A stretch of 31,838 nt of DNA from Candidatus Undinarchaeales archaeon (lineage in GTDB: Archaea > SpSt-1190 > JASMDC01), in contig JASMDC010000041.1 in assembly GCA_030753015.1 (NCBI GenBank), forward strand, positions 1-31,838, in the 5' to 3' direction. The notes below the pieces were generated by a model, which saw only the letters and a list, made by a program, of their open reading frames with translations, did no database searches and was not told the DNA's origin. Both the position numbers and the translations under genes were made by a program. Of the stretch, positions 9,702-31,805 are shown one piece after another (within the stretch, counting starts at the first letter, position 1; each line of letters starts with the position of its first letter).

Positions 9702-10286
9702 ATGCAAACAACTCCCGATACCACGGTGGAGTCATTGACCAAGATCGAGATCACTGTAGAGAACATCGTCGCCTCCATCAACCTACATTGTAGGATACCA
9801 CTTGAAAGAGTGGCGGCATTGTCTGATAACGCCGAGTACAATCCCGAGCAGTTCCCGGGTCTCGTGTTTCGGATTCAGGAACCAAAGACGGCGAACCTGC
9901 TCTTCGGCACGGGTAAAGCGGTGTGCACGGGTGGAAAGAGTCTTGATGACGTGAAAGCGGCGGTCGGGAAGGTGAAGGAGAGCCTCGCTGGATTCAACGT
10001 GAAGTTTGAGGGTGAGCCAGATATCGAGGTCGTGAACCTGGTGGCTTCTGTGAAGACTGACCTCGAGCTCAACTTGGACAGGCTCGCATACAAGATGGAA
10101 GGAGTGGAGTATGAGCCAGAGCAGTTCCCCGGAATGGTATTCCGGACGGTGAAACCTAAGGCGGCCATCCTCATCTTCAGCACAGGCCGGTTCGTGGTGG
10201 CGGGAACGAGAAACATAGAGGACGCGCGGGTAGTATTTGATATGTTACTGGAAAAACTGCGGGATATAGGCGAAATAAATCCATAA
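9702..10286 (+). CDS. tbp: TATA-binding protein (TBP) carried as a gene cassette
   Basis: TBP binds the TATA box and recruits TFB and RNA polymerase. The 194-residue product has both direct repeats of the saddle. Repeat 1 spans about 16-98 (VENIVASINLH, YNPEQFPGLVFR, LLFGTGKAVCTG) and repeat 2 about 107-190 (VVNLVASVKTDLELNL, YEPEQFPGMVFR, LIFSTGRFVVAG). The DNA-kinking Phe positions F56, F68, F147 and F159 are kept, so it should still bind TATA DNA. It has no acidic tail. The only upstream box is a weak CTTTTAGTATT at 9652-9662. It is the sole gene between attC B and attC C, which is extraordinary for a general transcription factor. It is probably an extra TBP rather than the housekeeping copy, an inference from its mobile setting. 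Confidence 0.94.
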   Translation: MQTTPDTTVESLTKIEITVENIVASINLHCRIPLERVAALSDNAEYNPEQFPGLVFRIQEPKTANLLFGTGKAVCTGGKSLDDVKAAVGKVKESLAGFNVKFEGEPDIEVVNLVASVKTDLELNLDRLAYKMEGVEYEPEQFPGMVFRTVKPKAAILIFSTGRFVVAGTRNIEDARVVFDMLLEKLRDIGEINP

Positions 10287-10540: not shown

Positions 10541-10562
10541 GTCGTTTCACGAATGATGAGTT

Positions 10563-11083: not shown

Positions 11084-11084
11084 G

Positions 11085-11110
11085 TAAGACTAATCTTACT
11101 AAGTATAAAT
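11085..11110 (-). promoter_or_regulatory. promoter and operator of the AbrB/RelE pair
   Basis: The TATA box lies at 11101-11110. Between it and the ATG, 11085-11100 is the inverted repeat GTAAGA-4-TCTTAC. A dimer bound there would cover the transcription start, as expected for an autorepressing antitoxin. Confidence 0.55.
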
Positions 11111-11144
11111 ACTTTATGGAAATCAGTCGTAATCGTGAAATGGC

Positions 11145-11292: not shown

Positions 11293-11428
11293 GCAATAAA
11301 ATTTAGTTTTCTATCAATCCTGCAATAGCAGACCATATTGTAAGGGAATTATTTTTCATGTTTGCAGTGCTTTCGAGTTAGGTTTGCTATTATTTTATAT
11401 CAATAATTATTATTTTTAAGGTATATTA

Positions 11429-11797
11429 TTATTCGACATAGATAGTAAGCTCATCTGTTCCTACGGCACCATCATCATCTATTACTTTTAATTTAGCAGT
11501 GTATGTACCCGGTTTTTCAAATGTGTATGCATCCCTTCCACAGTTTTTACAGAATGTATCATACTTACCATCCCCATCTGCATCCCATTCATAAGAGACT
11601 ATATTGCCGTCGGGATCAGATGCTGATCCAGCAAAATTAAACTTTTCCCCGACAGATACATGAATATCTTCACCTGCAATAACATTTGGAGCTTTATTTG
11701 ATTGTACTTCCTTGCTTGTGCAACCTGTATTAAGGACCATCAAAAACGTAATAATAAGGATTCCTAAGGGGTAGTTATTTGATTTTATCTGTAACAC
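11429..11797 (-). CDS. PKD-domain lipoprotein (cassette gene)
   Basis: A hydrophobic signal ends in the lipobox L-N-T-G-C, so the mature protein is lipid-anchored outside the cell. The mature part is one PKD domain (about residues 38-120), with APNVIAGEDIHVSVGEKFNF, the signature D-P-D-G-N-I-V-S-Y-E-W-D and a final strand TDELTIYVE; a C-K-N-C pair sits in the middle. PKD domains mediate surface adhesion or ligand binding. The GTG start at 11797 is the only one that keeps the signal peptide; a TATA box (TTTATAAAC) lies at 11838-11846. It is the most AT-rich gene in the window, a clear sign of foreign origin. Confidence 0.85.
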   Translation of the reverse strand: MLQIKSNNYPLGILIITFLMVLNTGCTSKEVQSNKAPNVIAGEDIHVSVGEKFNFAGSASDPDGNIVSYEWDADGDGKYDTFCKNCGRDAYTFEKPGTYTAKLKVIDDDGAVGTDELTIYVE

Positions 11798-11894
11798 CTC
11801 ATTTAGATTATCACAGTAAAACTAATCCTAGATGATGTTTATAAAACTATCTGAAAAATGAAAAATGAGTTTTTTGAAAATTAAATTTTATGGT

Positions 11895-12030
11895 ACAGAA
11901 CGGTAGAGCCCCCCCCCGACGCGGCTCAGTATAGCGAATTTGTGCGAAGTTTAGACAATCGAGGCTCCAACAATCCTGAGCCGTGTTGGGTGACCGCGGG
12001 GGCGCGAACCCGGGAGGGTGGATGTTAGAC
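11895..12030 (+). repeat. attC-like recombination site E
   Basis: The right box GTTAGAC (12024-12030) is a perfect match. The left box ACAGAAC (11895-11901) is degraded. GCGGCTCAG on the left pairs with CTGAGCCGTGTTGG on the right. It separates the PKD and Phd/ParE cassettes and explains most of the gap 11798-12044. Confidence 0.75.
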
Positions 12031-14874: not shown

Positions 14875-17800
14875 TTACAGTGGCAGGGAGGTGCACTCGC
14901 AGGCACAGAAGCGCTTGGACATCGTGCATCGCTCCCGGTCCACCCGCAGCTCGCACCCCACCAGACAGTCTGCGCAGTAGATGCTCACGCTGCACGGGTC
15001 CTGGGACACGGTCGTGTAGATGTCCGTCCGCTCGCCCTCGGTAGCGGTCGGGTCCAGCACCCCCAGCGCCGCGTACACAAATACGTTGGACGGGACCAGG
15101 GCGTCGGTCCACACCGTCCCGTCCTGGTGCTCGGCGACCACCCACAGGCGGTAGCTCTCGCCCATGGTCGTCGGGAACATCTGGCCGGTAAGCTCGGACG
15201 TGTCGCCGCGGCCCAGGGCCACCGTGCGCCGCTCCTCGCTCCCGCCCACCACAAGGCCTTCCTTGCTTACGGCACGGACGAGCACCGTGCCCACAAAGGA
15301 CTTGGGGACCGTGTTGCGCACCGTCAGCGTGGCCCGCGCCTCGCCGGCGGTGTACATCTCGTCCAGAGGGTTGTTGGCAGCGTCGGTGAAGGCGGCTTCC
15401 GTGATCTCGAGCTCAAGGGGCCTTACCTCCAGGCTGGCGTCCGGGTAGCCTAGGCGGACCCGGGCCCGTTCGCCCTCGCACCACGTGTTCATCACACGGC
15501 CCTTGCACCGGCTGGTTGCGTACCCCTGGCCGGGGAGCACCTGGCGCTCGACCACCGCACCGTCCGCGTCGCGCACCTCCACGCCGATGGAGAACACCGC
15601 GTTGGCCATCTCTGCGCTCAGAACCAGCTCCTCGGTCGCGATCCCGAGCTCCTGTACCGGCCCGGTGACCTCGTGGACCCTGGCCGATCCCTCCACCACC
15701 CTGTTCTGCGCGTCGGCGAGGAACACCTCGACCGTCACCGGGTAGGTGTGTGCCGTCACGGCCACCGCACCTGTGACCTGCTCGCCGGTGTAGCCCTCGG
15801 AGGTCCTTTCCCCGTCGCGGAGGAAGTAGGCGTCGGCCACGGTGAGCATGTCGGGCACCACCATGAACGAGATGGGACCGCGCGCGTCGAGCACCACCTC
15901 GCCCCCGGCGCGGCGCAGGACAGCGCCCGGCTGGACCGCCGTCACCGTCAGGTCGCCGTTGAGGGCGATCTCGCCTGTGAGCGCCCGGTAGTCGGCGCCC
16001 GGTGGGAGCACGATGCTCGAGAGGGAGCCTGCGAACCGCCGGTCCTCGGTGCACGAGCACGGGCACACGAAGCCCTTGGGGCACTCCGGGCAGGAGCAGG
16101 AGGGCAGGAGATGTAGGGAGAGGTCGGCAGCACCCGCAAAGCTGCGGAACCCGGAGTTGCGCACCTCCAGCGAGAGGCGGACACGCTCGCCGTGGTAGAA
16201 GGTCCGCTGCTCGGCCAGTCCCCGGAGGATGGCCAATCGGACGTCGACGCGGGGCATGGACAGCTTGCACTCGCGCAGGCAGCTTTCGGCGTCGTCCCCG
16301 TTCAGGCACCCGCGCTGGCAGGTCACCAGGGACGGCGGCACGCTCTCGCCCGCACCGTCCTCGTCCATCCTTCCGTCGCCGTCGTTGTCCCGGCCGTCGA
16401 CGGGGTCCTCGTCGACACGGTCGTCACCGTCCTCGTCGGCGCCGTTACCGCACTTGCGCAGGCACGGTCCCGGGTCGGGGAACACGCCGCACTCCAGCTC
16501 GCAGGACACGTCCATCTCCACGCACGCACTAGTGCACGCGGACACCTGGTCGATCGCCACGAGCGCCTGGCACATCTCGTTGCACGTGCCCAGGCTTCCG
16601 CAGTCCGTGGCGTCCAGGGCGCACGAGCCTCCGCAGCATACGCCCACTGCGCTGGTGCAGGCCTCGCCGTCACCGCTCCCGGCACAGCCCACGTCGGAGC
16701 CGGTGTCGCAGCCCGAGGCGCCGGCCACGCACGAGCCGCCGCAGCACTTCCCTTCGCTGGCGCCCAACACGCAGCTATCGCCGTCCCGGTCCGCGCACCC
16801 CACTGCCGATGAGCAGGTACCCACGCACGCGATGCGTGCGTCCTCATCGCCGGGATGGACCAGAGCGCACATGGGACCGCATTCCAGAGTGCAGCTGTCA
16901 TCGGCCCGTTCCTCCGCCTCGAGCCCGCCTGGCAGGCAGCACAGGTAACCCGACTCGTCTCCGCAGATGTCGAAGGTCAGCCCCGGCACGTCCGGTCCCG
17001 AGCATGAGCCCCCCTCGCCTAGTGTAGGGGGGACCGCAGCGATGCCGCCGAGGTCGTCGAGGCAGCAGGCGATGATGCGCTTGGCGTCCTCCTCGACGAT
17101 GGGCCCGGTGCAGGAGTAGGTGGTCGTCGTCCGTGTGCCGTCCGGATTGTGGCACACGCACATGCCCAGGTGGCGCTGGCAGTGGCCCACCTCGGCGCCG
17201 CACTCCTCGCGACAGATGCGGGAGCAGCCCGCCTCCGAGCGCGACGCGTACTCGAAGCACTCCTCGGCCGAGATGAACATGTCCTCCGCCTCGATGGCGG
17301 CCAGCGCCTGGACGGCTTGCTGTTGGCGCGCGGACCACTCGTCGGTGTTGCCGTCGGTGATGTCGCCCTCTCCCGGGCCGCACCGGTCCGCGAGCATGAG
17401 CCCGGGGTATACGTGGCCTAGGGTGGACACGTCCTCGACCGTGGCCGATGTCCGCAGCATCCGGATGAGGTCGGCGAGCATGGCCTTGAACTCCTCAGCG
17501 TCGGTGTCGGTGTCAGGATCGCGGGACATCTCGATAAGGATGTCGGACAGGCGCTCCACCAGGGGGACGGCGTCGTACGGGGGCTCCTCGCCGCTGAGCG
17601 AGATCTCGGTGAGCTCGGTGTCGACCAGGGCGCTGATCGTGGTACGTAGGTCGGGGTAGGTGGCCAGGAAGTGGTCCACGAAGCTACGCAGGACCGTCAC
17701 CTTCTCTGCTACGAGCGCGGGACCGTGGGTGGCCTCGTCGCCCAGGAGCGTGCCCGAGCCGTCGAGGGTGCACACGTCCTTGACGTCGACGACGCGCTGG

Positions 17801-19371
17801 TAGGAGGTGGAGTAGTAGGTCCGCCGTTGGGCGGGGCTGGGGAGGTGGCACTCCTCGGGGACCATGGACGTCGCCACGGTCTCCTCGTCCCACGGTGCGA
17901 CATCGCAGGCATCGCTCAGGTCCACGTCCTCCAACGCGGGGTTCTGGAACGTACCCAGGGTGCCCAGGGCCACAGCACAGTGGTCCTTCTGCTGATCGAG
18001 GGCGTCCTCGAGCGCTTCCAGGTGGGCTGCGAGCACCTCGTACAGGTCGCGGAGGTTGTCGAGCGTGGTGAGCACATCGGTGCGGAAGTCGACCGTGTTG
18101 TCGAACCAGCCCTCGGGACAGGCGATCAGCCCCGTGTCGAGCACGCTCAACGGTGTCGGGTCCGTATCGGTGTGGGTCCAGTCGACCGTCGGCGAGTAGT
18201 CGTGGACCTCGCCCGCCTCGCCCTCCGCCCGCTCGCGGCAGAACCGGTCGCCGATGGCCTGACCACCGTCGTCCACCTTCACGGGTTCGGGCCGACCGCT
18301 GCCCTTCAGCAGGCCGTACACGGTGGACCGGAACGCAGGCTCGCAAAGGTTCTTCTGGAACTCTCCGGCGGCGTTGGCGGTACCGGCCTGGTCGTTGCCC
18401 GCAAGCGCCACGATGTACCGTCCGCCCTGCTCCTCGAAGGCCACGATGAAGGGCGCGTCGTACCGCAGGGCCAGCTCGCCCGCGGTGAAGTCCAGCTCCT
18501 CGCTGCCCACGTACACCTTGTTGGCGGCCTGGTCGTACCGCACCCGCATCCCGTCCTCCACGCCGTCGAGCACCGAGTTGGACGTGCTCGAGCCCAGGAG
18601 CACGAGGTTGCCGCCGGGGACCGCGCCTGTGTGCTCGACCACCGCCATACCGAGCTCGGCGCCCAGCACGAGGGCCTTGGCCCGGTCATGGCTCCCTACC
18701 CCGGAGCCGTACACGACCGTGCCATCGCCGCCTGTGCACTTCCCGTCGCTGCAGCCCTCGTAGCACGGGTAAGCGTCGCCGTTCACGACCAGCGGCACAA
18801 GACCGTCGTTGGACCTGATCGACGCGTCGTACTGGCGGACGTTGTCGGGGGAGAACAATCGGTCGTACGCGTCACAGTAGCGCTCGTGGTCGGGCTCGAT
18901 GCATCCCTCGGGGAGAGGGCCTGAGGGACCGGAGGGACCGCCGGGGCCTCCCGGACCACCGGGACCGCCCGGACCGGGTGTCGGGGTCACCGCTCCAACG
19001 GGCACGGTGACGGAGATATAGGTACGACAGCCGGGGCCCATGTCGTAGGCGCCGCAGTCGACCCGGCCCTGGCACCGCAGTGAGTAGGTGCCCTCCACGT
19101 CGTAGGTGACGTCCACGACGCTGTTCCACGCGTCGCCCCAGATGAACTGGCCCGAGGAGTAGTCATCGATGTACATGTCGATGTGGTTCTCCTGGGAGTC
19201 GGTCCCGGTGCACTTCACCGTGACGGGCGCCTCAGCGCTGGCGGCAGCGACGCTCCCGTCGTTGGAGGATGAGTGGATCTGGGCACCGTTGACGAACACG
19301 TTCACCGTGGGCCGGGCCAGCGCAAGGGCCAGCGCGAGCACGCACAGGACCGCGAGCATCCTCGACCTCAT
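14875..19371 (-). CDS. giant secreted cysteine-rich protein, third paralogue (no peptidase domain)
   Basis: About 1498 residues. The ATG at 19371 overlaps the upstream TGA (ATGA), so it is translated by coupling; an in-frame ATG at 19392 lies inside the previous gene. In order: signal peptide (1-20), a beta-rich Ig-like domain, a collagen-like Gly/Pro linker (about 131-152), and a segment (VVYGSGVGSHDRAKALVLGA, VLLGSSTSNSVLD, YIVALAGNDQAGTA) that loosely recalls archaeal S-layer sequences. Then come the helical and VCTLDGSG blocks shared with the two upstream paralogues, a Cys-dense block with a defensin-like spacing (705-740), two C-C-G-G modules, an acidic Asp-rich calcium-type stretch (DNDGDGRMDED), beta-rich repeats and the shared eight-Cys end. 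No membrane anchor follows, so it is probably secreted. Function is unknown. Confidence 0.9.
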   Translation of the reverse strand: MRSRMLAVLCVLALALALARPTVNVFVNGAQIHSSSNDGSVAAASAEAPVTVKCTGTDSQENHIDMYIDDYSSGQFIWGDAWNSVVDVTYDVEGTYSLRCQGRVDCGAYDMGPGCRTYISVTVPVGAVTPTPGPGGPGGPGGPGGPSGPSGPLPEGCIEPDHERYCDAYDRLFSPDNVRQYDASIRSNDGLVPLVVNGDAYPCYEGCSDGKCTGGDGTVVYGSGVGSHDRAKALVLGAELGMAVVEHTGAVPGGNLVLLGSSTSNSVLDGVEDGMRVRYDQAANKVYVGSEELDFTAGELALRYDAPFIVAFEEQGGRYIVALAGNDQAGTANAAGEFQKNLCEPAFRSTVYGLLKGSGRPEPVKVDDGGQAIGDRFCRERAEGEAGEVHDYSPTVDWTHTDTDPTPLSVLDTGLIACPEGWFDNTVDFRTDVLTTLDNLRDLYEVLAAHLEALEDALDQQKDHCAVALGTLGTFQNPALEDVDLSDACDVAPWDEETVATSMVPEECHLPSPAQRRTYYSTSYQRVVDVKDVCTLDGSGTLLGDEATHGPALVAEKVTVLRSFVDHFLATYPDLRTTISALVDTELTEISLSGEEPPYDAVPLVERLSDILIEMSRDPDTDTDAEEFKAMLADLIRMLRTSATVEDVSTLGHVYPGLMLADRCGPGEGDITDGNTDEWSARQQQAVQALAAIEAEDMFISAEECFEYASRSEAGCSRICREECGAEVGHCQRHLGMCVCHNPDGTRTTTTYSCTGPIVEEDAKRIIACCLDDLGGIAAVPPTLGEGGSCSGPDVPGLTFDICGDESGYLCCLPGGLEAEERADDSCTLECGPMCALVHPGDEDARIACVGTCSSAVGCADRDGDSCVLGASEGKCCGGSCVAGASGCDTGSDVGCAGSGDGEACTSAVGVCCGGSCALDATDCGSLGTCNEMCQALVAIDQVSACTSACVEMDVSCELECGVFPDPGPCLRKCGNGADEDGDDRVDEDPVDGRDNDGDGRMDEDGAGESVPPSLVTCQRGCLNGDDAESCLRECKLSMPRVDVRLAILRGLAEQRTFYHGERVRLSLEVRNSGFRSFAGAADLSLHLLPSCSCPECPKGFVCPCSCTEDRRFAGSLSSIVLPPGADYRALTGEIALNGDLTVTAVQPGAVLRRAGGEVVLDARGPISFMVVPDMLTVADAYFLRDGERTSEGYTGEQVTGAVAVTAHTYPVTVEVFLADAQNRVVEGSARVHEVTGPVQELGIATEELVLSAEMANAVFSIGVEVRDADGAVVERQVLPGQGYATSRCKGRVMNTWCEGERARVRLGYPDASLEVRPLELEITEAAFTDAANNPLDEMYTAGEARATLTVRNTVPKSFVGTVLVRAVSKEGLVVGGSEERRTVALGRGDTSELTGQMFPTTMGESYRLWVVAEHQDGTVWTDALVPSNVFVYAALGVLDPTATEGERTDIYTTVSQDPCSVSIYCADCLVGCELRVDRERCTMSKRFCACECTSLPL

Positions 19372-22300
19372 GCAATCGCCTCCAGGATGCAATCGCAGTC
19401 ACAATTATAAGGAGTGACGGTGCAGCGCCCCCGCTCGATACGCAGCTCGCAGGTCGAGAGACATTGCACGCACGCGACCCGTGCCCGGCAGCCCTCGTGG
19501 TCCATGGATGTGAACACGTCGTTGCGGGCGATGCCACCGGTAGCGCTCTGGGGGATGTTGAGCCCGGCCATGGGGAAGAGGACCGTCGGGACGACCTCGT
19601 CGAGCCATACTGCGCCGTCGCGGGCATGTGCCGTTACCCGGACCCGCAGCGTCATCCCGGGGGTCGCGTCGACGGGGGCCGACTCCGCCGTCATCGTGGA
19701 GCCCCTGTCATCGAGCCCGCGGTCGACGGCGACCTCGCGCTCCGATTCGGTGATGGCGAGACCGTCGTCGCCGATTATGGCGATCGTGACCGTGCCCGTG
19801 AACCCCGAGGACGCCTGGTTGGCCAGCTCCACGCGCACCCGCACCGTGCGGGCAGCGGACCGCCCGCCGACCACAGATCCGCCGTCGTCCACGAAGGCCG
19901 CATCGGTCACCACAAGGGCAGGCCGACGTACCTCGAGGAACGCACGCGGGTACGAGAGGCGCACACGCTCGTGGAGGCCCTCGCACCAGGTCAGGAGAGC
20001 AGGTCCCGTGCACAGGTCCGCGGCCCGTCCCTGTTCGAGGAGGATACCCTCGGCGAGAGTGGTACCGCCGCCCTCGACGCGGTAGCCGATCCGGAACAGG
20101 AGGTCGGCCTGGGTGCCGGTGATGTCGAGCGGGGCCGAGGTGAAGGTGCTCTCCTTGACGGGCCATGCGATCTCGTGTGTGCGCTCGGTACCGATTACCG
20201 GCGTACCGTCCCAACCGACGAGGTATATTGTGAGGGAGACGGGGACCAGCTGCGTGGTGAACGACACCGCACCGAACGCCTCCTCTCCCGGATGCCCGGT
20301 GGTGGCACGCTCGCGCCCGCCCACCGTGAACCACGCGTCGGCCACCGTGAGCTTGCCCGGCGCACCTATCCCGTAGAAGGGGCCGTGCGGTTCGCCGACG
20401 ATCTTGCCCGCAGCGTCTCGGACGGTGGCGACCGGGCGGACGGTCGTGCCCGCCAGGGAGGCGCCGAGCTCAACGGGGTCCGTGAGGACGCCCTGCTTCT
20501 GTCCCGGGCCGACCACGAGCTGTGTGGTGGTGAGGATGACGAGCTCTTCTACCGAGCAATCGCACGGGCAGTCGTCGCCGACGGGGCACACGGAGCACGC
20601 GCAGTCGCGGTTGATCTCAAGGACCACGTCGACCTTCCCGGTGAAGCCCGTGCCGCCCCGGTTCTCGACGGTGAGATGCAGCCGGGGGCGTTCACCGGTG
20701 TGGAACGACTCGGCCTCCTGCCCGTCGCGCACGAGGGCGAGGGACGCGTGGATCCGGGGGTGGACGGCGCGGCACATCTGGAGGCAGAGGGTGATCTCGG
20801 GCAGGTCGTCCGAGCTGGTCAGGCAGCCCAACTCGCAGTGCCGCAGTCCTTCCGGCATGGAGGGCGAGGCGACGCCCGGACAGCCCTCAAAGCACATCGA
20901 GCGTGCCCCGGACAGCGGGAACTGGTCGATGCATCGCAGCTCGCAGGCGATGTCGGCACCCTCGCAGCGCTGTCGGCATGCCTGGGCGAGGGCCGGGCGC
21001 TCGGGATAAGCGTTCTGGCACTCTGTGAGGCAGCTGGCGGCAAGGCACGGCGGCCAGCCGCGGGGCCGGTCGCACGACGAGGCGAAACGCACGCACGCGC
21101 CCGAGCCCGGGTTCAGGGCGAAGGTGACGACCTCAGGGCATGCACCGCACGACTTCCCGCCGGTCGCGCAGGAGCCGCCGCAGCAGACGCCTGTCGGTCC
21201 GTCCACCTCGCACACGCCGCCCTCGACCGTGTCCGCACAGAGCGATGGTACGTCCTCGCAACCGTTGGCGCCGGCAACGCACCCCCCTCCGCAGCATAGC
21301 CCGGACGCACCGTCGATGCTGCATTCGGCGCCGTCATCGGCGCTGACGCAGCCGTGACCGGGGCAGGCCGACCATCCGTACGGTGCATCGCACGGCGAGG
21401 GGAAGCGCACGCACTTGCCCGATAAGGGATCCTTTGCATAGGTGTCGACCTGCTCGCACGTCATGCACGAACTGGCGCCCACGGCACAATTACCGCCACA
21501 GCAGGTGCCGACACCCTGTCCGACGAGGCAGGGCAAGCCCTTCCCATCGTCACCGCACGCGGTGTCCGGGACGCACCCCGTGGCACCTACTGCACACGAG
21601 CCTCCGCAGCACTGGCCCTGGGCGCCCGCGACGGTGCAGGCGGTGCCGTCCTCCTGACCCGTGCAGCCGAAGCCGTCGCAGTCGGTCCAGCCTGCGGGGA
21701 CGTCGCACGTGGACTCGAACCGCGTGCACCCGCCCGCGTTGGGATCCCGGACCCACACCGGCGAGCGCGGGCAGGCGGTGCACTCCTCGCCGCCCGTGAG
21801 GCAGCGGCCGCCGCAGCACACACCATTCTTATTGTCAAAGGAGCAGGATGCCAGCTCGTCACGGCCCACACAGGCATCGACACGACCCGCGCACATGAGC
21901 GCGTGGACCATGCACTGGTCATCGCAGCAGAGGCCCTGTACACCGTCTACCTCGCACGCGCTCTCATCACCCTTCCCGGCGCACTGCTCGTCCTGCAGCC
22001 CGCAGGCATGCCGGCAGACGAGGCGTCTTGTGGAGTGGCGTGCATACTTGCCGTCGCACAGCTCCTCGCAGGAGAGACCGCACCCTTCCTCGGTGATGGG
22101 CAGCTCGGGCTCGAGGCCCGGTCCCCGGCAGCAGAGCTCGTCGACGGTCTCGGTGCACCAGCTCACGGATATACCCGTCGACGCCCGCGCCCCCGGGCCA
22201 AGGCGACATGCACCACCCCACCGGTCCTTGTAGGCCGGGTCGGATAACCGGGATACGGTCACGATCCCGTCGGGCTGTGAGGCATGGACGAGCGAGTCAT

Positions 22301-25262
22301 CACCAGTGAATATGCCCGCGTGGACGACTCCTTCACCATCCTCACCCCTGAGGAACACCACGTCGCCCGGGCGAAGCTTGCGCCATCCGACGCGACCGCC
22401 GCCGTTGGCCTCGCATGCTTCGTGCTGCGCTGCCGGCGTGCGGGGGAGCTCGACGGCGACCTCGCGCATGACGGCGAGCACGAGACCTGCCCCGTCGACA
22501 CCGTCACGCGATGTTCCACCGTTCACGTAGGGTACTCCGAGCCAGGTACCCGCAGCGTACGCGATGGCACCGCCGCTCCATGTGGTCCCCTCGACATCGT
22601 AGATCCGCTGGCAGCATGTGGTGAGCGAGTCGGACCCGCCGTCCGTGCCGTCCTCTCCGGGGATGGGAGCGTCCGGGCCCGGGACATCCTCTCCCGGGGG
22701 TATCTCTCCAGCCGCCCCGTCGGGCGTCGCGCCCGGTGTCGAGCCGGAGCTCGAGCCTGGTGAGGACGATCCGGGGTAGGAGTTACCGCCACCGCTGGTC
22801 GTGTCGTAGCCGAAGCACATGCCGTCGGTGAGGAACAGTCCTTCCGGATCCCACGCAGCGAGCGCCAGGAGGTTGGCGAGGCCGTCACCGGACCAGGCGT
22901 CCGTGTTGCCGTCGCTGATGGACGTTGATGTCACGGTGGCGTAGCAGCCGCCGCGCTTGCCCTGGGGCGGGCAGTCGTCGAGGTGCGAGGGCGGGCCTTG
23001 GTCGGACGTGTCATCGTCGGGCTTCTGCTCCTCCTCGGGCTCCTCAGCGTCCTCGTCCCCGGTCCCGTCCTCCTCTCCATCCTCCTCGCCCAGCTCCGTG
23101 CACTCCTCGCCCTCGAACAGGGCCGGGAAGCTCGCGTCGCAGTCCTCCGCGTTGGACCAACCCTCCGAGGACTGGACTAGGAAGGCCTGCGCCGTCGCGC
23201 TCATCCCCCCCGCCGCACCGATGTCGCCGACGTACTCCTTGAGGAAGAGGACAAGGGCCTTGAGCCCCTCCTGGGTGGGCTCTACCTTGTCGGCGTTCTT
23301 GGACATGGCGGTGAAGAGCTCGGCCTCGTGGAAAAGGAGGAATATATTGCTCGAGCCTTCCAGCACGGGCTTGGGATCGGTGGCCACGCCGTTCACCCTG
23401 ATCTCGAAGTGCAGGTGCTGGCCCGTGGAGCAACCCGTCGTCCCCATCAGTCCGATGCGCTCGCCCTGCTCGACGACCTGGCTCATGGTCACGTCGATGT
23501 GCCTGAGGTGGGCGTACCGCGTCTGGAGGCTGTTGCTGTGGTCGATGAACACCGCGTTCCCATAGCAGCCTCCCGAGGAGGCGAGGAGGATCGACGCGAC
23601 CTTGCCGGCGGCTGCAGCGACGACGGGGACCGTACCGGACTCGGCAATGTCGTACCCCTTGTGGACGTGGGGCTTGCACAGTCTGGTGTCCGCGCACAGA
23701 GCGTCCCGTTGCCCGAAGGGCGACGTCTCGTGCCCCTCGGTGGGCCAGATTATGGCGTCCTTGTCGTCCAGCTTCTTGCGCGTTTCTTCCGCCATCTTGT
23801 GGACCTCGTCGGTCAGCTCCTTGAGCGTGTGGACGAAGTCCTGCATGTCACTGATGACCACGTCGAGCCTTGCTATGACCTCGGTAGGTCCGTGCGCCCC
23901 GTCGTCGCCCAGGAAGGTCCCCGAGCCGTCGAGGGTGCACACGTCCTTGACGTCCACGGCGTCCTGCTGGCACTGCTGGAGCGCGATGCGGTCCACGTTG
24001 GCATGTTTGCCCTTCTCGGTGGCGAGGTAGGTCTTCCTGCCGTCGTCGAGGTCCTTGGGCTCGCACCCCTTGACACCGAACGGGTCCGAGGTCTCTGTCA
24101 GACCTCCGTCCTCGGGGACCGGGTAGGTGGTATCGGCGCCCCAGCCCGCGTCGGTGGTGATCTCTGTGATCGTCGGCTCCGGCCCATCGCTCTCCTCCTC
24201 ATCGTCGTCCTTCTCTCCGCAGGTGCCGCACCCGGTGCCGGTCTCGCAGTCCTCGGCCACGCACATGCTGCACGTCCTGACGGCCGCAGGGAGGTGGCCT
24301 GAGCCCTTCTTGCACTTCCAGGCCTCGTCCGCCAGGCAGGTCTCGGCGACCGCCTGGTAGCACAGTTCCGGACCGAAGCCGTCGCCGATGACAAGGGCCT
24401 CTAGCGGGTGGGCCTCCGTGACATCGGGCTCGTACACGGGCGCCGGCTCCTTTTCCTCGGGCATGAGGTCGCCCTCGATACCCTCGCTCGGCGTGTAGGG
24501 CTCCTCTTCCTCCGCGGTCGTCGTCACGGGCTCCTCCTCGGGGACCTCCTCATCACCCTCGTCCCCGGCGTCATCGCTCGGTGCGAAGGGTTCCATCTCG
24601 CACGGTACACCGTACCGTGATGCGAACCTGTTGATCCTCCCGTGGCACTTCGCCTGCTGTGCGTAGAACGAGTCGCGCAGCGCCTTCAGTTCGTCGACGA
24701 AGGGCTCGTAGAACTCGATGAGGTCATCGAACAGCGTCTCGACCTCGGTGAGGTAGTCCACGACGTTGTTGTAGTTCTCGACCTCGGGGCACTCGGGCAG
24801 CTTGCGTTGTTCTCCTGCCCCGGACGTATCGTCCTGGCCGCCGTCGGTGCTCACATCGCCGGTCCCTTCCTCGGTACCTGCACCCGTGCCCGTCCCGGTC
24901 CCTTCCTCTGCGTCCGTCACTTCCTCTTCCGTGCCGAGGGAGGTCAGGTCGAGCTCCTCCTCGCCGGTATAGAGCAGCTGGTTGCCGGCCTCGTCCGCGT
25001 CCTCGGCACCGAAGCGCTCCTGTATATAGGCCTTGCAGGGGCTCACGCTCTCCTGTCCTCCGGGGAAGCAGAACGCCATGTGATGGGTCTGGGCATCGCC
25101 TGCTGCGGGCAGGTCCATGGGCGCGGTCTCGTACTTGACGTCGGCGCAGGGATCCACGAACTCCTCGGGTCCCTCGCCCAGGACGGGCGTCAGCACCAGG
25201 AGCGCGACCGCTAATGCAATAGCTGCGGCCATCCTCCCGATGCAAAGGGACCTTCGTACCAT
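19368..25262 (-). CDS. giant secreted cysteine-rich protein, second paralogue: M23 peptidase plus inactive NlpC/P60
   Basis: 1964 residues with a signal peptide (about 1-30), acidic Gly/Thr/Glu linkers and the shared helical and VCTLDGSG blocks. An M23 (LytM-type) domain spans about 515-640, with zinc ligands H534 and D538 (HKGYD) and the H616-L-H618 motif, so it should be active. The NlpC/P60 domain (about 895-1010) keeps H981 and H993 but has G924 where the catalytic Cys belongs (VDGAG instead of VDCSG). Six C-x6-8-G-x-C-C-[GD]-x2-C modules follow, then beta-rich domains and the shared eight-Cys end. GAGAGGTC lies 8 bases before the ATG, 30 bases after the first paralogue. M23 enzymes cut peptidoglycan cross-links. 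It contains no N-glycosylation sequons that I can find, unlike the first paralogue. Confidence 0.92.
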   Translation of the reverse strand: MVRRSLCIGRMAAAIALAVALLVLTPVLGEGPEEFVDPCADVKYETAPMDLPAAGDAQTHHMAFCFPGGQESVSPCKAYIQERFGAEDADEAGNQLLYTGEEELDLTSLGTEEEVTDAEEGTGTGTGAGTEEGTGDVSTDGGQDDTSGAGEQRKLPECPEVENYNNVVDYLTEVETLFDDLIEFYEPFVDELKALRDSFYAQQAKCHGRINRFASRYGVPCEMEPFAPSDDAGDEGDEEVPEEEPVTTTAEEEEPYTPSEGIEGDLMPEEKEPAPVYEPDVTEAHPLEALVIGDGFGPELCYQAVAETCLADEAWKCKKGSGHLPAAVRTCSMCVAEDCETGTGCGTCGEKDDDEEESDGPEPTITEITTDAGWGADTTYPVPEDGGLTETSDPFGVKGCEPKDLDDGRKTYLATEKGKHANVDRIALQQCQQDAVDVKDVCTLDGSGTFLGDDGAHGPTEVIARLDVVISDMQDFVHTLKELTDEVHKMAEETRKKLDDKDAIIWPTEGHETSPFGQRDALCADTRLCKPHVHKGYDIAESGTVPVVAAAAGKVASILLASSGGCYGNAVFIDHSNSLQTRYAHLRHIDVTMSQVVEQGERIGLMGTTGCSTGQHLHFEIRVNGVATDPKPVLEGSSNIFLLFHEAELFTAMSKNADKVEPTQEGLKALVLFLKEYVGDIGAAGGMSATAQAFLVQSSEGWSNAEDCDASFPALFEGEECTELGEEDGEEDGTGDEDAEEPEEEQKPDDDTSDQGPPSHLDDCPPQGKRGGCYATVTSTSISDGNTDAWSGDGLANLLALAAWDPEGLFLTDGMCFGYDTTSGGGNSYPGSSSPGSSSGSTPGATPDGAAGEIPPGEDVPGPDAPIPGEDGTDGGSDSLTTCCQRIYDVEGTTWSGGAIAYAAGTWLGVPYVNGGTSRDGVDGAGLVLAVMREVAVELPRTPAAQHEACEANGGGRVGWRKLRPGDVVFLRGEDGEGVVHAGIFTGDDSLVHASQPDGIVTVSRLSDPAYKDRWGGACRLGPGARASTGISVSWCTETVDELCCRGPGLEPELPITEEGCGLSCEELCDGKYARHSTRRLVCRHACGLQDEQCAGKGDESACEVDGVQGLCCDDQCMVHALMCAGRVDACVGRDELASCSFDNKNGVCCGGRCLTGGEECTACPRSPVWVRDPNAGGCTRFESTCDVPAGWTDCDGFGCTGQEDGTACTVAGAQGQCCGGSCAVGATGCVPDTACGDDGKGLPCLVGQGVGTCCGGNCAVGASSCMTCEQVDTYAKDPLSGKCVRFPSPCDAPYGWSACPGHGCVSADDGAECSIDGASGLCCGGGCVAGANGCEDVPSLCADTVEGGVCEVDGPTGVCCGGSCATGGKSCGACPEVVTFALNPGSGACVRFASSCDRPRGWPPCLAASCLTECQNAYPERPALAQACRQRCEGADIACELRCIDQFPLSGARSMCFEGCPGVASPSMPEGLRHCELGCLTSSDDLPEITLCLQMCRAVHPRIHASLALVRDGQEAESFHTGERPRLHLTVENRGGTGFTGKVDVVLEINRDCACSVCPVGDDCPCDCSVEELVILTTTQLVVGPGQKQGVLTDPVELGASLAGTTVRPVATVRDAAGKIVGEPHGPFYGIGAPGKLTVADAWFTVGGRERATTGHPGEEAFGAVSFTTQLVPVSLTIYLVGWDGTPVIGTERTHEIAWPVKESTFTSAPLDITGTQADLLFRIGYRVEGGGTTLAEGILLEQGRAADLCTGPALLTWCEGLHERVRLSYPRAFLEVRRPALVVTDAAFVDDGGSVVGGRSAARTVRVRVELANQASSGFTGTVTIAIIGDDGLAITESEREVAVDRGLDDRGSTMTAESAPVDATPGMTLRVRVTAHARDGAVWLDEVVPTVLFPMAGLNIPQSATGGIARNDVFTSMDHEGCRARVACVQCLSTCELRIERGRCTVTPYNCDCDCILEAIA

Positions 25263-25292
25263 GTCTCATTGACCTCTCATATGTTCTCTGTC

Positions 25293-28200
25293 CTATATTG
25301 CTCCCATGATGCACTCGCAGTCGCACTGGTCGCGGGTGACCGTGCACCTCGTCCGGTCCACACGCAGCTCGCAGGTGGTAAGGCATTCGTCGCACCTGAT
25401 GCTGGCCTGGCATCCCTCGTGGATTATCGTTGTGAAGATCGTGTTCCGCACCAGTCCCTCGGTCGTGTCCTGGGTCACGGTCAGCTCGGCGAACGGGAAG
25501 AGCGCGGCGGGTACGATCTGGTCGAGCCAGGTCCTCCCGTCAATGTCCGTGGCCTGGACCCAGATGCGGAAGGACGCGCCCGGCTTGGGCCACACGAAAC
25601 CTGACTCTACCTCGATGGACGAGCCTGCGCCCTCCAGGCCACGGTCGACGCCCAGCGCCACGACCGACTCGGGGACCGCCATGCCGTCGGTTCCAACGAC
25701 CTTCACGACCACGGTCCCCTCGAACCCCTGCGCGGCCAGGTTGGTCAGCTCGATCTTCGCCCGGACCGAGTCGCTCCCGGATAGCCGGTTCACGGCGAAT
25801 CCATCGTTGTCGACGAATGCCGCGTCGGCCACGTCGAGCATGGGTCGCTTCACTTCCAGGTAGGCGTCAGGGTAGGAGAGCTTCACGCGCTCGTGCAGCC
25901 CCTCGCACCACGTGGTGAGGTCGCGTCCCTCGCACAGACCGGGTGGTCTGCCCTGTTCGTCTAGCGTGCCCTCGGCCAGGACCGCGCCGGATGCATCCGT
26001 CACCTTGTACCCGAGCCGGATGACGAAGTCCACGTGGGCGGTATCGACCTCGAGCTCGCCCGTGGTGAACGTCTCCATCCTCGTCGGCCAGGTAATGGTG
26101 TGGGCCCAATCGGTGCCCTCGATGGGTTCCCCGTCCCACCCGACCATGAACAGGTCGAGCGTCACGGGCACCTGGTCGGTGGAGAACACAACGAACCCAA
26201 CCGCGTCCTCACCGGGGTAGGCGGCGGTAGCGCGCTCACGGTCGTTGACCAGGAACGACGCGTCGTTCACCGCAAGCTTCTCGGCCTCACTGATACCATA
26301 GAAACTGCCCAGGGGCTTGCCTATGACCTGGTCGTAGGTATCGCTGACGATGGCGACTGGCTGGACGGTTGTGCCAGCAAGCTCGCTCTGCAGGGTGACC
26401 GGGTCGGTGAGGTACCGCGCCTTCTCGCCGGGGGCGAGCATGATGTTGTCGAGCGAGAACACCTGGCGTTCATCCTCCTCGCAGTCGCAGCTGCACATGT
26501 AGTCGTCCGGACAGGGCTCGCACTCGCAGGCGTCGAGCACCCGCAGTGAGACGTCCATGTCGCCCGCGAACCCGGCGCTGCCGCGGTTCTCCACCTCCAC
26601 CCGCATGCGCGGGCTCTCGCCGGTGAAGAACGACTCGGCCTCCTGGCCGCCGCGGAGCAGGGCGAAGGTCACGTGGACGCGCGGGTGGATGGCCCGGCAC
26701 AGCCTGAAGCACAGCAGGGTGGGCGCGGGCTCGCCATTGTTGAAGTCGATGCAGTCCTCCTCGCACCACCGGAGGCTCTCGGGCATCAGTTCGGTGATCA
26801 CACCCGGACAGCGCTCGATGCACGCAAGTCGCTCGTCGCGTCCTGCGAAGTCCATGATGCAGCGCTCCTCGCAGGATATGTCCATCGTCTCGCACAGCTC
26901 CCTGCAGTTGCGCGCCAGGGACGGGTTCTCAGGGTACTCGTTCTGGCACTCGGAGAGGCAGCTCTCCACGATGCACGGTGGCCATCCCTTTGGCACGTCG
27001 CATGGTGTCGAGTACTGCTTGCACTCCTGGGTCACCGGATTGAGGGCGAACGTGACCACCTGGGGGCAGCCACCGCAGATGGTGCCACCCAGCACGCAGT
27101 GGCCACCGCAGCACACTCCGTCCTGGTCATCGGACTCGCACGCTCCACCCTCGGCCTTCCCCTCGCAGGGAACGGTATCGAGGACACATTGCGTACCGCC
27201 GACGACGCACCCATTGCCGCAGCAGATGCCGCGGTCCTCGTCCTTGGTGCACGCGGCACCGTTGATGAGACCAGCACAACCGTACCCTTCGCAGGCGGTG
27301 AACCCGTACGGGACGTCGCAGGGGGTAGAGAACTCCTTGCACGCATCCGTTACCGGGTCCTTGGCATGGGTGATCGCCTGCACGCACTCGCCGCACCGTG
27401 TGCCGCCCACCGCGCACTTCTCGCCGCAGCACACGCCGGGCACGTCCCTGGCATAGCACGGGACGCCGTTGCCCATGCCCTGACAGGTGTCGTCGGGCAC
27501 GCAGTCCTCAGCGTTGAGTGCGCAGGTGAAACCGCAGCATACGCCCAGTTCGCCTTCTTTGGAGCACTCGTACGTCTCGTCCGCTTCGGTGTCGCACCCG
27601 AAGTTCTCGCAGTCGACCCAGCCATCGGGCACATCGCAGGTGTTGGTGAACTTATCGCAGGCACCAGTATCGGGATTCTGAGCGTAGACTGTCATGTCCT
27701 TGCAGGAGCTGCAGTCACTCTCGCCGGTGAGGCACCGGCCTCCGCAGCACACGCCGGACTCGCCGTCGAAGGAGCAGGCGTCCAGGCTCATCAAGCCCAC
27801 ACAGACCTCCACCCGGCCAGCGCACATCAGAGCATGGACCATGCACTGCTCATCGCAGCACAGGCCCTTCATCCCGTCCACCTCGCAACCGGTCTCCTCC
27901 GGCTTGCTAGCGCACTGCTCGTCACGGGCACCGCACTTGTGCCGACAGACGAGGTACTTGAACGAGTGGCGCTCGTACTTGCCCTCGCACAGCTCCTCGC
28001 ACGTGAGACCACACTCCTCCTCGGTGATCTTCTTCTCGAGCTCGAGGCCGGGGCCCTGGCAGCATAGCTCCTCGGTGTCGTCCCCGCACCAGTCGATATC
28101 GAGCGCCTCGTAGCTGGCGCCGCCCTCCACGTACCGGCACCCGCCGGTCCAGTGCTCGCGGAAGTAGGAGTTGGAGAGCTGGACGATCTTGACCACATCG

Positions 28201-31200
28201 CCCGGCTTGGGCGCGTGGATCATCCGGTCGTTGCCCGTGTAGACGCCAACATGCGAGACACCGGGCTTATAGGTGTTCTCGAAGAACACGATGTCACCCG
28301 CCTGCAGATCGCCCCAGTCGACGTACGTCCCGCCGTTGCTCTCGCAGGCGAAGTACTGCTGCGAGGCGGTCCGGGGCACGTTGATGCCGTTCTCTCTGAG
28401 CACGTTCAGGGTGAGCCCCGAGCAGTCAACGCCCGAGCGGCTGGTGCCGCCGAACACGTAGGGCACGCCCAGCCAGCTCCGTGTAGTGTCCACGATGCCT
28501 CCGCCGGCCCAGGAGGAGTCCTCTATACCGAAGATGCGCTGGCAGCACTGCACGAACGGGTCCTTCTCGCTCTCGGGGATATCCTCTCCTGGTGTGATAG
28601 TGCCGTACCATGAGCCACCACCATCGATGGCGAGCGGTACCTCACTGCTATCGCCGTCGTCGACGGCCATCCCGCCACCCTCCTCGGTGTCGTAGTTAAA
28701 GCAGTCGGCGTCGTTGATGAAGAGCTTTTCCGGATCGATTTCCTTCATGAGGTCCAGCAGACGCGTGTCCGTCCACGCATCCGGGTTGGTATCGGTCACG
28801 GTGATGAGCGCCTCGGTCGCGTTGCACCCGCCCCGCTTCTTCTTCTCCGCGCAGATGGGTACAGGACGCCTCTCGGTAACGTTGCAGTCAACGGACCCGT
28901 CGATGGTGAAACCAGTGACATTTTCCACGAGCTGGTCGAGCCCGGTCTCAGTGTCGTTGAGCGGCTCGCACGTCTCCTTGTCGAAACGGGGACGCAGGTG
29001 CGGTGAGCATTTTTGCTCGTACTCCCAGTCCTTTGACGACCGGACGATGAACGAGGTGACGTTCTCGAAGAAGTCGGTGGTGGTGACATCGTTGGTAAGG
29101 TTACCTTTAACGAAGTTGACGAGGTTCTTGAGATCGTTCTGAGTGGCATTGACCTTCTCCATCCCGTCGGTGATGGTCTTCTCGAACTCGGCCAACGTCC
29201 CGGGATCGAGCGCGCTCGAGTTCACGTCCTCTAGGCTATCGGAGTTCTGCCCCATCAGCTCCTTCGACAGAGTGGCCGAGCGCTGCATGTTCTCCACGTA
29301 CGTCTCCATGATGGCGATGAGCGAGTCGAGCTTCTCGAGCACCTCCGTGGGGCCGTGCCCCTTGTCATCGCCGATGAAGAGGCCGGAGCCATCGAGGGTA
29401 CAGACGTCCTTTAGGTCGGCAGCCTCACGCTGGCAGCCCTCGAGCTCGAGCGGTTTGGCGACCGCATTGTAGCCCTTGACCGAACGGATGATGCCCTGTG
29501 CGCCGGACCCGAGGTCCTGGTACTGGTTCTTCTTGCACTCGGCGATGCCGAACGGCTCGGTCGCGAGGGTGGTGTTCATATCCTCGGTCCACTCCTTGAT
29601 GGTAGAGCTCTTCCCCGGGAGCTCCCGCCCCTCACGGTCCAGCTCGACCCATACCATATCGAACTTCTTCACGTTGCAGTTCATGGTGTCGTAATCGTAC
29701 TCAGTGATGACACCCTCATCATTGGTCTCGTAGCCGATCAAGCACGCGCACTCGGCACTGGTGAGGAGGAAATCGTTCCGACATTTCTCTTCCATCTCCA
29801 GGCGCTCGGGCTGTGAGAACACGTCCATGCAACCAGATGTGGTGCTCTTGCACTGCCAGGCACGCACGAATGCCTTCTCCTCAAGGTCTTCGATGTAGGA
29901 CTTCTTACAACAGACATAGGTCTCCTCGCAAAGAACCCCCTGCCCGGGGATGCCCCCTGCCATGCAGGGCGGGAGCGTGAGCTTACCGTTCGCGGCGTTC
30001 CCGCAGGTGGTGCAGTTTTGTCCGTAGCAGCACGGTTCGATCGTGCACATGGGGCACGACATGATCTCGGTGACGTTCCGGGTCCCGTTAACACCAGGAT
30101 CTATGTTGCACGCCCACCCTCTATTGGCGAGGCATCGGTCGGCAACCGCCTTTCCGCATACGCTGGGATCGAAGGAATCGTCAACGATAGCAGACTCGAT
30201 AGTGGCGTTGTTCTTGTCCGTGAGCTCCTTCATCCCGCATCCGTTGGCGTACGCCTCGATGAAGTCGTTGATGTCCGCATGACAAGCGGCCTGTTGGGAC
30301 GCGACCGCGGAGCGGAGCACTTTAACGTAACCGATGAGACGGGTGTAGAAGCCGGAGAGGTCCTCCACGAGCTTGATGTACTCGTCGCCGAAATCGGCCT
30401 TGTTGTCGTAGGAGGTACGCTCCGGGCACTTGAGGGCGCCGAAGTCGAGGGGCTGCAGTACAACGTCCTGGGCCTTGGCCGCGGCGTTCTCAGCAGCATT
30501 GCCCGCTGCATTCTCTGCAGCGCTGGGATCACTTTCACCCGCATTGGCGAACTTCCACTCCTCGGAGACGGGGACGGTGGTCGCCGTCTGATCAGCACCC
30601 TCGGGGGGGGTGTCCGGTGCGGAGTAGCTAATCCGCACATCGGGGATGAATCCCTTCACTGACGGATCGAGGGACTCGATAACGTTTACATGTCCTCCCT
30701 CGCCGTAGATATCACGTCCGAGGCGCGAGGTGTAGAACATCTGCCCGGGTTCCTCATAGGTGAAGGTGAGGCGTCCCGCGTCACTCTCCGACCCGATGGC
30801 GATCTTCTTGCCCTGCCCGTCCCGTAGTCCGTGCTTCTCGATGTAATCGATGCAGGCGGCCCGGTCGTACCCGGGTGACGAGTCCGTCTGTTTATCGGTC
30901 CCGTTCTTCTGCACGACGCAGAACTCCACGTGATATCGGCGGTCGCTCCCTGCAGCAGGCTCACCGGTTACCTGCAGCTTGACATCGGCGAAGAGACAGG
31001 GATTCTCAGCAAGCTGGCCAGAGGTGAGGTCCGTGAACGCTGTCTTATCCCCGTCACCCTTGTACTGGGTGACCTCGGTGCCGTTGTGGACCTTGAGAGA
31101 GTCTTTTGAGAAGAAGCCCTGGTCCCCCTTCATAGACTTCCAGAGGACATCCATACCATTTTCGAAGGTATTGTTGATGAGATCCTGGGGGAGCTTGTTG

Positions 31201-31805
31201 TCCACCCCGCAGGTGGCACGCTTACTGATATCCAGGTCGTCGGTGATGATGGACCAGTTATCATATCCGTCCCCTTTCACCTGCCACTTTCCCTCGTGAT
31301 ACCTGTACCGCCGGTTGCCGCAGAACATGTTCCCATCGGTGTACTCGATCTCCAGGGACGTGCCCCAGAGCTCCTGACCGGTGATATTGAGGGTAGTCAT
31401 GGTCTCTGCGGGTGGTTTTGAGTAGGGTTCGGGTGTGGGCTCGGGCGTGGGTTCGGGCGTGGACGTCGGTGGAGTTTCCTCTGGCTGTTGTGCGACAACT
31501 TCCTCGCACTTCCCGTCCATGCCGCAATTGAGGCCGTCATAACACAGAGAGCCGCAGCACTCCTTGTCTTTCTCGCCGCAGTGCTGCCTGCACACGTCCT
31601 CGGTCATTTGATCGTAGATATCGTCCTTCGTGCTGTCGACGGGGTCGCACTGCTCGTTGACAACGTCCCCCACCGAGTTGACGATCTCGTACTTATCCGT
31701 GTCCTTGTTCAAGCAACAGAACACCTTGTTGTCGGCCGCCATCGCGATGAGCATGACGACGACCGCTAGCGATACTGCGAATCTGAGTCCATTTCCCCTT
31801 TCCAT
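25293..31805 (-). CDS. giant secreted cysteine-rich protein, first paralogue: active-looking NlpC/P60 peptidase
   Basis: 2170 residues. A signal peptide (about 1-24) is followed by a Cys-rich head and a Pro/Thr/Glu linker (TPEPTPEPTPEP). A long N-terminal region holds about 18 N-x-S/T sequons (residues 140-995). The NlpC/P60 domain spans about 1100-1215, with C1128 in VDCSG, H1185 in SHVGVYTG and H1197 in MIHAP. NlpC/P60 enzymes cut D-glutamyl-diamino-acid bonds of peptidoglycan stems. Next come six C-C-G/D Cys modules alternating with CDVP-x-G blocks (about 1239-1610), beta-rich domains, and a C-terminal eight-Cys signature. No membrane anchor is seen. It is the first gene of a three-gene operon whose promoter is mostly outside the window; only 33 bases precede the ATG. 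Antisense ORFs over it are composition artefacts. Confidence 0.93.
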   Translation of the reverse strand: MERGNGLRFAVSLAVVVMLIAMAADNKVFCCLNKDTDKYEIVNSVGDVVNEQCDPVDSTKDDIYDQMTEDVCRQHCGEKDKECCGSLCYDGLNCGMDGKCEEVVAQQPEETPPTSTPEPTPEPTPEPYSKPPAETMTTLNITGQELWGTSLEIEYTDGNMFCGNRRYRYHEGKWQVKGDGYDNWSIITDDLDISKRATCGVDNKLPQDLINNTFENGMDVLWKSMKGDQGFFSKDSLKVHNGTEVTQYKGDGDKTAFTDLTSGQLAENPCLFADVKLQVTGEPAAGSDRRYHVEFCVVQKNGTDKQTDSSPGYDRAACIDYIEKHGLRDGQGKKIAIGSESDAGRLTFTYEEPGQMFYTSRLGRDIYGEGGHVNVIESLDPSVKGFIPDVRISYSAPDTPPEGADQTATTVPVSEEWKFANAGESDPSAAENAAGNAAENAAAKAQDVVLQPLDFGALKCPERTSYDNKADFGDEYIKLVEDLSGFYTRLIGYVKVLRSAVASQQAACHADINDFIEAYANGCGMKELTDKNNATIESAIVDDSFDPSVCGKAVADRCLANRGWACNIDPGVNGTRNVTEIMSCPMCTIEPCCYGQNCTTCGNAANGKLTLPPCMAGGIPGQGVLCEETYVCCKKSYIEDLEEKAFVRAWQCKSTTSGCMDVFSQPERLEMEEKCRNDFLLTSAECACLIGYETNDEGVITEYDYDTMNCNVKKFDMVWVELDREGRELPGKSSTIKEWTEDMNTTLATEPFGIAECKKNQYQDLGSGAQGIIRSVKGYNAVAKPLELEGCQREAADLKDVCTLDGSGLFIGDDKGHGPTEVLEKLDSLIAIMETYVENMQRSATLSKELMGQNSDSLEDVNSSALDPGTLAEFEKTITDGMEKVNATQNDLKNLVNFVKGNLTNDVTTTDFFENVTSFIVRSSKDWEYEQKCSPHLRPRFDKETCEPLNDTETGLDQLVENVTGFTIDGSVDCNVTERRPVPICAEKKKRGGCNATEALITVTDTNPDAWTDTRLLDLMKEIDPEKLFINDADCFNYDTEEGGGMAVDDGDSSEVPLAIDGGGSWYGTITPGEDIPESEKDPFVQCCQRIFGIEDSSWAGGGIVDTTRSWLGVPYVFGGTSRSGVDCSGLTLNVLRENGINVPRTASQQYFACESNGGTYVDWGDLQAGDIVFFENTYKPGVSHVGVYTGNDRMIHAPKPGDVVKIVQLSNSYFREHWTGGCRYVEGGASYEALDIDWCGDDTEELCCQGPGLELEKKITEEECGLTCEELCEGKYERHSFKYLVCRHKCGARDEQCASKPEETGCEVDGMKGLCCDEQCMVHALMCAGRVEVCVGLMSLDACSFDGESGVCCGGRCLTGESDCSSCKDMTVYAQNPDTGACDKFTNTCDVPDGWVDCENFGCDTEADETYECSKEGELGVCCGFTCALNAEDCVPDDTCQGMGNGVPCYARDVPGVCCGEKCAVGGTRCGECVQAITHAKDPVTDACKEFSTPCDVPYGFTACEGYGCAGLINGAACTKDEDRGICCGNGCVVGGTQCVLDTVPCEGKAEGGACESDDQDGVCCGGHCVLGGTICGGCPQVVTFALNPVTQECKQYSTPCDVPKGWPPCIVESCLSECQNEYPENPSLARNCRELCETMDISCEERCIMDFAGRDERLACIERCPGVITELMPESLRWCEEDCIDFNNGEPAPTLLCFRLCRAIHPRVHVTFALLRGGQEAESFFTGESPRMRVEVENRGSAGFAGDMDVSLRVLDACECEPCPDDYMCSCDCEEDERQVFSLDNIMLAPGEKARYLTDPVTLQSELAGTTVQPVAIVSDTYDQVIGKPLGSFYGISEAEKLAVNDASFLVNDRERATAAYPGEDAVGFVVFSTDQVPVTLDLFMVGWDGEPIEGTDWAHTITWPTRMETFTTGELEVDTAHVDFVIRLGYKVTDASGAVLAEGTLDEQGRPPGLCEGRDLTTWCEGLHERVKLSYPDAYLEVKRPMLDVADAAFVDNDGFAVNRLSGSDSVRAKIELTNLAAQGFEGTVVVKVVGTDGMAVPESVVALGVDRGLEGAGSSIEVESGFVWPKPGASFRIWVQATDIDGRTWLDQIVPAALFPFAELTVTQDTTEGLVRNTIFTTIIHEGCQASIRCDECLTTCELRVDRTRCTVTRDQCDCECIMGAI

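Follow-up and report, generated by a model that had tools for sequence, protein, structure and literature searches.

What use would an archaeon, whose cells appear to lack murein, have for giant secreted proteins that carry murein-hydrolase domains? The question is raised by a whole contig of 31,838 nucleotides (nt), here called the window (JASMDC010000041.1, or C53), from the draft genome of a Candidatus Undinarchaeales archaeon (GCA_030753015.1; 117 contigs, 3.85 Mb, completeness 98.9%, contamination 5%). Three consecutive minus-strand genes of this contig, A1, A2 and A3, encode paralogous giants. At least 23 proteins of their family were found in the same genome, many of them accompanied by two further genes, X and Y. 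The best reading of this family, to which an even chance is given, sees in it modular surface proteins that resemble PilY1, are associated with a pilin and bear murein hydrolases directed at bacteria.

The three open reading frames (ORFs) have the sizes reported in a first-pass annotation made from the window alone. A1 (25293..31805) encodes 2170 amino acids (aa) with 135 Cys, A2 (19368..25262) 1964 aa with 115 Cys and A3 (14875..19392), which has 78 Cys, 1505 aa from a TTG or 1498 aa from the ATG at 19371. As annotated, 30 nt lie between A1 and A2, and A2 and A3 overlap at an ATGA, an arrangement for which the operon reading is reasonable; the balanced amounts of the three proteins that had also been proposed cannot be inferred from sequence. 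A sigma-70 style promoter scan is inapplicable to archaea. The frame of A1 continues without a stop past its ATG as far as the end of the contig, 33 nt further upstream; its start is therefore putative, and any upstream content lies beyond the contig. The identity between A1 and A2 is 45% over 1403 aa (BLAST E reported as 0), that between A1 and A3 33% over 749 aa (4e-99) and that between A2 and A3 34% over 666 aa (1e-93). Since A1 and A2 pair with full support in a tree of their C-terminal block B, and A3 joins this pair with moderate support, the triad probably arose by tandem duplication.

A common block order had been noticed by eye and was recovered with profiles, which match all three proteins in one order, in every case at an E value of 1e-16 or better. 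Block H (helical, Q-Q-x-x-C) lies at 30234..30434 in A1 (profile E 4e-21), 24597..24794 in A2 (1e-22) and 17956..18126 in A3 (2e-17). It is followed by block V (VCTLDGSG) at 29235..29444 (4e-26), 23769..23981 (9e-29) and 17605..17808 (9e-24), respectively, and by block W (DAW/CFxY; DAW...CFNYD in A1) at 28680..28832 (7e-21), 22794..22952 (6e-20) and 17236..17376 (7e-18). A1 then contains Cys-rich CCGG-type repeat modules, delimited by their Cys positions (26973..28088), and A3 a Cys-rich block E of the form C..C...CxxxxGxCVC (17044..17226, 8e-20). The beta-rich block B with its eight-Cys end closes each protein, at 25308..26966 in A1 (5e-200), 19386..21038 in A2 (9e-188) and 14890..16587 in A3 (3e-183). 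Residues 160-410 of A3 (18163-18915, minus strand) have no Pfam match and, by eye only, an archaeal S-layer-like look.

An AlphaFold2 model of the A1 block B (pLDDT 64) consists of Cys-rich helices followed by three Ig-like beta sandwiches. Its best fold matches are the biofilm scaffold protein RbmA (Z 11.3, 105 residues aligned at 2.4 A, one domain) and transglutaminase beta domains; the fold is a common one and would point only to an extracellular, adhesion-type build. The sole match of block B in a PDB sequence search was a weak one (0.09) to an S-layer protein, and the model of the H-V region was unusable (pLDDT 45). Secretion of the three proteins, claimed from the outset, is borne out by hydropathy analysis: each has a signal-like N-terminal core (in A1 about residues 1-24, 31734..31805, with a hydropathy of 2.79 at residue 9) and no other clear membrane segment.

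The enzyme domains annotated in the triad are confirmed for two of its members. A1 contains an NlpC/P60 domain (28140..28469; Pfam PF00877, 2.4e-25, 89 bits against a gathering score of 23) in which the alignment finds both the catalytic Cys of the D-C-S-G motif and the following His, and which matches NlpC/P60 chains of the PDB with E values down to 5.9e-21. A2 contains an M23 peptidase domain (23373..23666; PF01551, 2.9e-27, 95.2 bits against a gathering score of 28.7) whose HxxxD and HLH zinc motifs are intact, with HKGYD and HLH as the ligand-bearing sequences, and which matches M23 chains of the PDB with E values down to 2.7e-17. The NlpC/P60 domain of A2 (22209..22538; 1.4e-15, 57.6 bits) has exchanged DCSG for DGAG at about residue 924; with the catalytic Cys replaced by Gly it is predicted to be inactive. 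A3, in which no enzyme domain was detected, has neither a Pfam nor an NCBIfam match.

A search of the genome with the block B profile unveiled giants on more than 15 contigs, and 23 of the 24 collected candidate ORFs carry both H and B blocks. In the 24th (C51), which is limited to 1248 aa by the stretch that was read, none of the blocks was detected, and the count of 23 is a lower bound. The triad as a closed system was thus rejected: A1, A2 and A3 are paralogs of one another, as had been claimed, but at least 20 further paralogs are encoded elsewhere in the genome, and wherever the gene context is complete many giants have X and Y, rather than two more giants, as neighbours. The giants are Cys-rich proteins of 1.0-3.1 thousand residues, and the 24 candidates sum to 50,046 aa, or 3.9% of the genome. 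Every candidate begins with a hydrophobic signal-like core and mostly shows no comparable hydrophobic segment elsewhere, which makes export of the giants well supported at the level of sequence. Whether the triad recurs in other archaea, a question left by the first-pass annotation, was answered in the negative, giants of this family being seen only in this genome: the block profile found no relatives among 393 other archaea, nor among 371 genomes of another archaeal phylum in a search that had no positive control. One pattern-based scan each of genome contigs and viral contigs, insensitive to distant relatives, gave nothing that could be confirmed.

All four NlpC/P60 and all four M23 matches of the genome fall inside giants, at least six of which bear a hydrolase domain. 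According to the alignments, the NlpC/P60 catalytic motifs are intact in A1 and in the giants on contigs C46 and C20 and lost in A2, and the M23 motifs are intact in A2, C20 and C41, with an altered ligand in C21. A lytic-transglycosylase-like (SLT-like, PF01464) domain was found in the C20, C21 and C41 giants. It scores 21.9 bits against a gathering score of 21.3 in C21 (1.4e-4), reaches only E 0.039 in C41 and goes unreported by Pfam in C20; its three copies are 54-62% identical to one another, and their profile finds no solved structure in the PDB at E 0.1. The position of this domain varies: it lies at the N-terminus of C20, in the interval from H to V of C41 and within B of C21. The inserted domains of distant members can also be more alike than the scaffolds that carry them (NlpC/P60 of A1 and C46, 54% vs 34%; M23 of A2 and C20, 50% vs 24%; SLT-like of C20 and C21, 54% vs 29%), which suggests either movement of domains or stronger constraint on the enzymes. 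Other giants carry C-type lectin domains (Lectin_C 1.7e-29 in one member), Kazal domains or FG-GAP repeats (C117). A laminin-G domain occurs in a 2066-aa Cys-rich protein encoded near the C46 giant (L012 7793-13993), and the C25 giant has an archaeal S-layer gene (PF05124, 1.9e-18) in its neighbourhood (L013 1617-4466).

X (about 900-1000 aa) and Y (about 600-700 aa) flank many giants. At seven contigs (C41, C39, C117, C29, C30, C21 and C36) X, Y and one or more giants adjoin co-directionally. Neighbouring genes there overlap slightly or lie at most some tens of nt apart; the stretch read ends within X at C36 and within Y at C117. On C22 a giant adjoins Y and X, and a Y-like gene and another giant are found near this group, and a 2640-aa giant on C39 contains a fused Y-like domain (6e-113). 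Six of seven aligned Y copies start with RGQ and a hydrophobic stretch, the seventh with RAQ. With its short basic N-terminus, (K/R)-G-Q site and hydrophobic helix, Y is predicted to be a type IV pilin-type protein of a class III-like kind. Further X and Y genes occur at C76 and C26 (L095, L096), where nearby long Cys-rich ORFs do not match the scaffold profiles.

Y has relatives beyond this genome. Its N-terminal part is present, in several cases weakly, in 24 of 296 other archaeal genomes, many of them small, and an hhalign comparison of the Y of this genome with that of other archaea covers 380 columns (probability 99.6, E 3.8e-24). At most of the loci fetched, Y is directly followed by the gene of a secreted protein of 1.0-2.5 thousand residues. 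With hhalign, these giants of other archaea show no homology to the scaffold described here, and X shows none to a family of about 1.1 thousand residues found among them. The proteins that follow Y in other archaea fall into at least two families, one with an fn3-like start and the other of about 1.1 thousand residues (L082-L094). One small-genome archaeon (G195:C36, L078, 5012-15388) has a run of three genes, for Y, for a secreted protein of 1777 aa and for a Cys-rich protein of 1019 aa, the last with an SLT (2.9e-9) and a peptidase M15 domain (2e-12).

What might the hydrolases of such a family cut? The search that detected no Mur ligase domain in the genome was positive in 12 of 14 controls, M. 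jannaschii and H. volcanii among them. A murein or pseudomurein wall of its own, and hence remodelling of such a wall, is therefore unlikely for this organism, and a bacterial target becomes the likeliest use; for A1 and A2 this would be bacterial murein, and a foreign murein target is well supported. The suggestion of a weapon or scavenging system against bacteria stands to that extent, although only two of the three window proteins carry a hydrolase and one of their two NlpC/P60 domains is predicted to be dead.

While the anatomy of the family is secure, the mechanism that can be proposed from it is moderately supported. A1, A2 and A3 would be members of a family specific to this lineage and made up of giant, Cys-rich extracellular proteins exported by Sec, in which a constant scaffold (H, V, W, usually E, and the Ig-like B) carries exchangeable plug-ins, namely murein endopeptidases (NlpC/P60 and M23), SLT-like lytic-transglycosylase domains, C-type lectins, FG-GAP repeats and Kazal domains. 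The giants would work with Y and X, and their probable place would be at or close to a type IV pilus-like structure, much as minor pilins present PilY1; the link between Y and the giants rests on gene order and one fusion. Lectin and propeller members could hold on to nearby cells, and bacterial murein could be cut by the members with hydrolases, which in the window are A1 and A2; the purpose may be killing, feeding or stable attachment. Several observations speak against this picture. Neither X nor Y lies next to the triad on its downstream side, and the nearby contig end hides any partner upstream of A1; the giants at C46, C25, C27, C20 and C34 likewise have neither gene within the stretch read. 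The SLT assignment is weak for two of the three copies, and most giants are without a hydrolase, so murein cutting is not a function of the whole family. A bolder version is conceivable and can be put forward only tentatively: a pilin-anchored, combinatorial attack-and-grip apparatus of X, Y and at least 23 interchangeable giant tips with hydrolases and lectins, used to prey on bacteria by a single archaeon whose genome has the size of a free-living one; Y paired with a giant would then represent an ancient surface device of small-genome archaea.

Among the alternatives, an adhesive or matrix function is unlikely, if less so than the others. The family would then form a disulfide-linked extracellular coat or biofilm scaffold whose hydrolase domains mainly bind murein or glycans and hold bacterial partners rather than kill them, and the Cys-less NlpC/P60 domain of A2 would be one such binder. 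The Ig-like sandwiches of block B with RbmA among their best matches, the lectin, FG-GAP and Kazal members, the degenerate A2 domain, the altered M23 ligand in C21 and the predominance of giants without an enzyme domain are all in line with such a role, but the catalytic motifs are intact in three of four NlpC/P60 and three of four M23 domains, and several murein-directed activities are predicted within this one family. Digestion of the murein of dead bacteria as food, without killing, appears improbable: secreted hydrolases of complementary specificities in an organism without detectable murein synthesis would suit it, yet giant surface scaffolds tied to a pilin-type protein and to lectins suggest contact rather than free digestion. 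There is similarly little to be said for a changed specificity, in which other archaea, or surface proteins of the organism itself, would be the targets of the NlpC/P60, M23 and SLT-like domains, for instance when the S-layer or pili are processed or crosslinked. NlpC/P60 relatives with other acyl-transfer activities exist, and the S-layer gene near the C25 giant fits this explanation; the A1 NlpC/P60 and A2 M23 domains are, however, close to bacterial murein endopeptidases, and NlpC/P60 was found in none of nine class relatives, so that no basic self-role is indicated.

The remaining alternative, a binning or assembly artefact with a bacterial or chimeric contig and with hydrolases that stem from contamination, is very improbable. 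It draws on the draft state of the genome with its 5% contamination, on the unusually large size of 3.85 Mb against 0.6-1.1 Mb in class relatives and on the uneven G+C content along the contig, which falls to 0.44 (10001-12000) against 0.65-0.70 across the giant genes. A bacterial contig, which would have undone the first-pass annotation, was rejected: the window encodes a TATA-binding protein (TBP; 9702..10286, plus strand; PF00352, 1.6e-53), not part of the system, which identifies the contig as archaeal. A single 43% relative of this TBP was recovered, from a Pacearchaeota bin. The scaffold is moreover spread over at least 15 contigs, one of them near the archaeal S-layer gene, and the pilin-type partner is homologous to an archaeal family. 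A bacterial small-subunit ribosomal RNA model found no match in the genome. The same contig also contains an integrase fragment (PF00589, 13556-14062), an RsgA-type GTPase (3400-4491, plus strand, 7.1e-49), normally a bacterial ribosome factor, and a fusion of a response regulator with DUF835 (5875-6777, plus strand).

Parts of this design have counterparts in known systems. Archaeal secreted peptidoglycan hydrolases (PGHs) such as Woldo of Halogranum salarium kill bacteria, and 12% of PGH-bearing archaea in a survey had more than one PGH (PMC12352652). With these the giants share the export signal, the murein-hydrolase domains (M23 in both), cells without murein and the modular shuffling of domains. 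They differ in their Cys-rich scaffolds of no known family, in their pilin-type partner, in having six or more hydrolase-bearing members in one genome and in that the Pfam matches of A1, A2 and A3 include no known peptidoglycan-binding domain, a function that the uncharacterised blocks could serve. PilY1 forms the tip complex of type IV pili together with minor pilins (PMC9109919) and resembles the giants in its large size, its secretion, an operon shared with one or more pilin-type proteins and several paralogs that combine a constant C-terminal part with variable N-terminal domains. No sequence relation came to light: the Pfam matches of A1-A3 do not include PilY1, and the block B model, at a pLDDT of 64, is Ig-like. 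In contrast to the PilY1 system, X and Y fall outside the known families of minor pilins, and the giants carry enzyme domains. The SPEARE proteins of Nanohaloarchaeota are likewise very long archaeal surface proteins that combine adhesion and enzyme domains and take up a few per cent of the genome; their transmembrane anchor, cytoplasmic restriction-enzyme domain and serine protease (PMC6642349) were not found in A1-A3, which have no Pfam restriction domain and no membrane-like segment past the N-terminus. In Woesearchaeota, lytic murein transglycosylases have been proposed to help these archaea prey on bacteria (PMC9723730). They are a further case of a murein-cutting domain in small-genome archaea; unlike the giants here, they are encoded singly, and neither a scaffold nor a partner of pilin type has been described for them.

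Very little is known of how archaea attack bacteria, feed on them or hold on to them, and this genome offers a testable set: giants with swapped wall-cutting and gripping domains in an apparently murein-less cell, tied through gene order and a fusion to a pilin-type protein that is common to many archaea. If the proposed mechanism is true, it would connect the enzymes that archaea direct at bacteria with a structure that delivers them at the cell surface, and it would assign a role to a gene pair that is common in small-genome archaea and as yet has no name.

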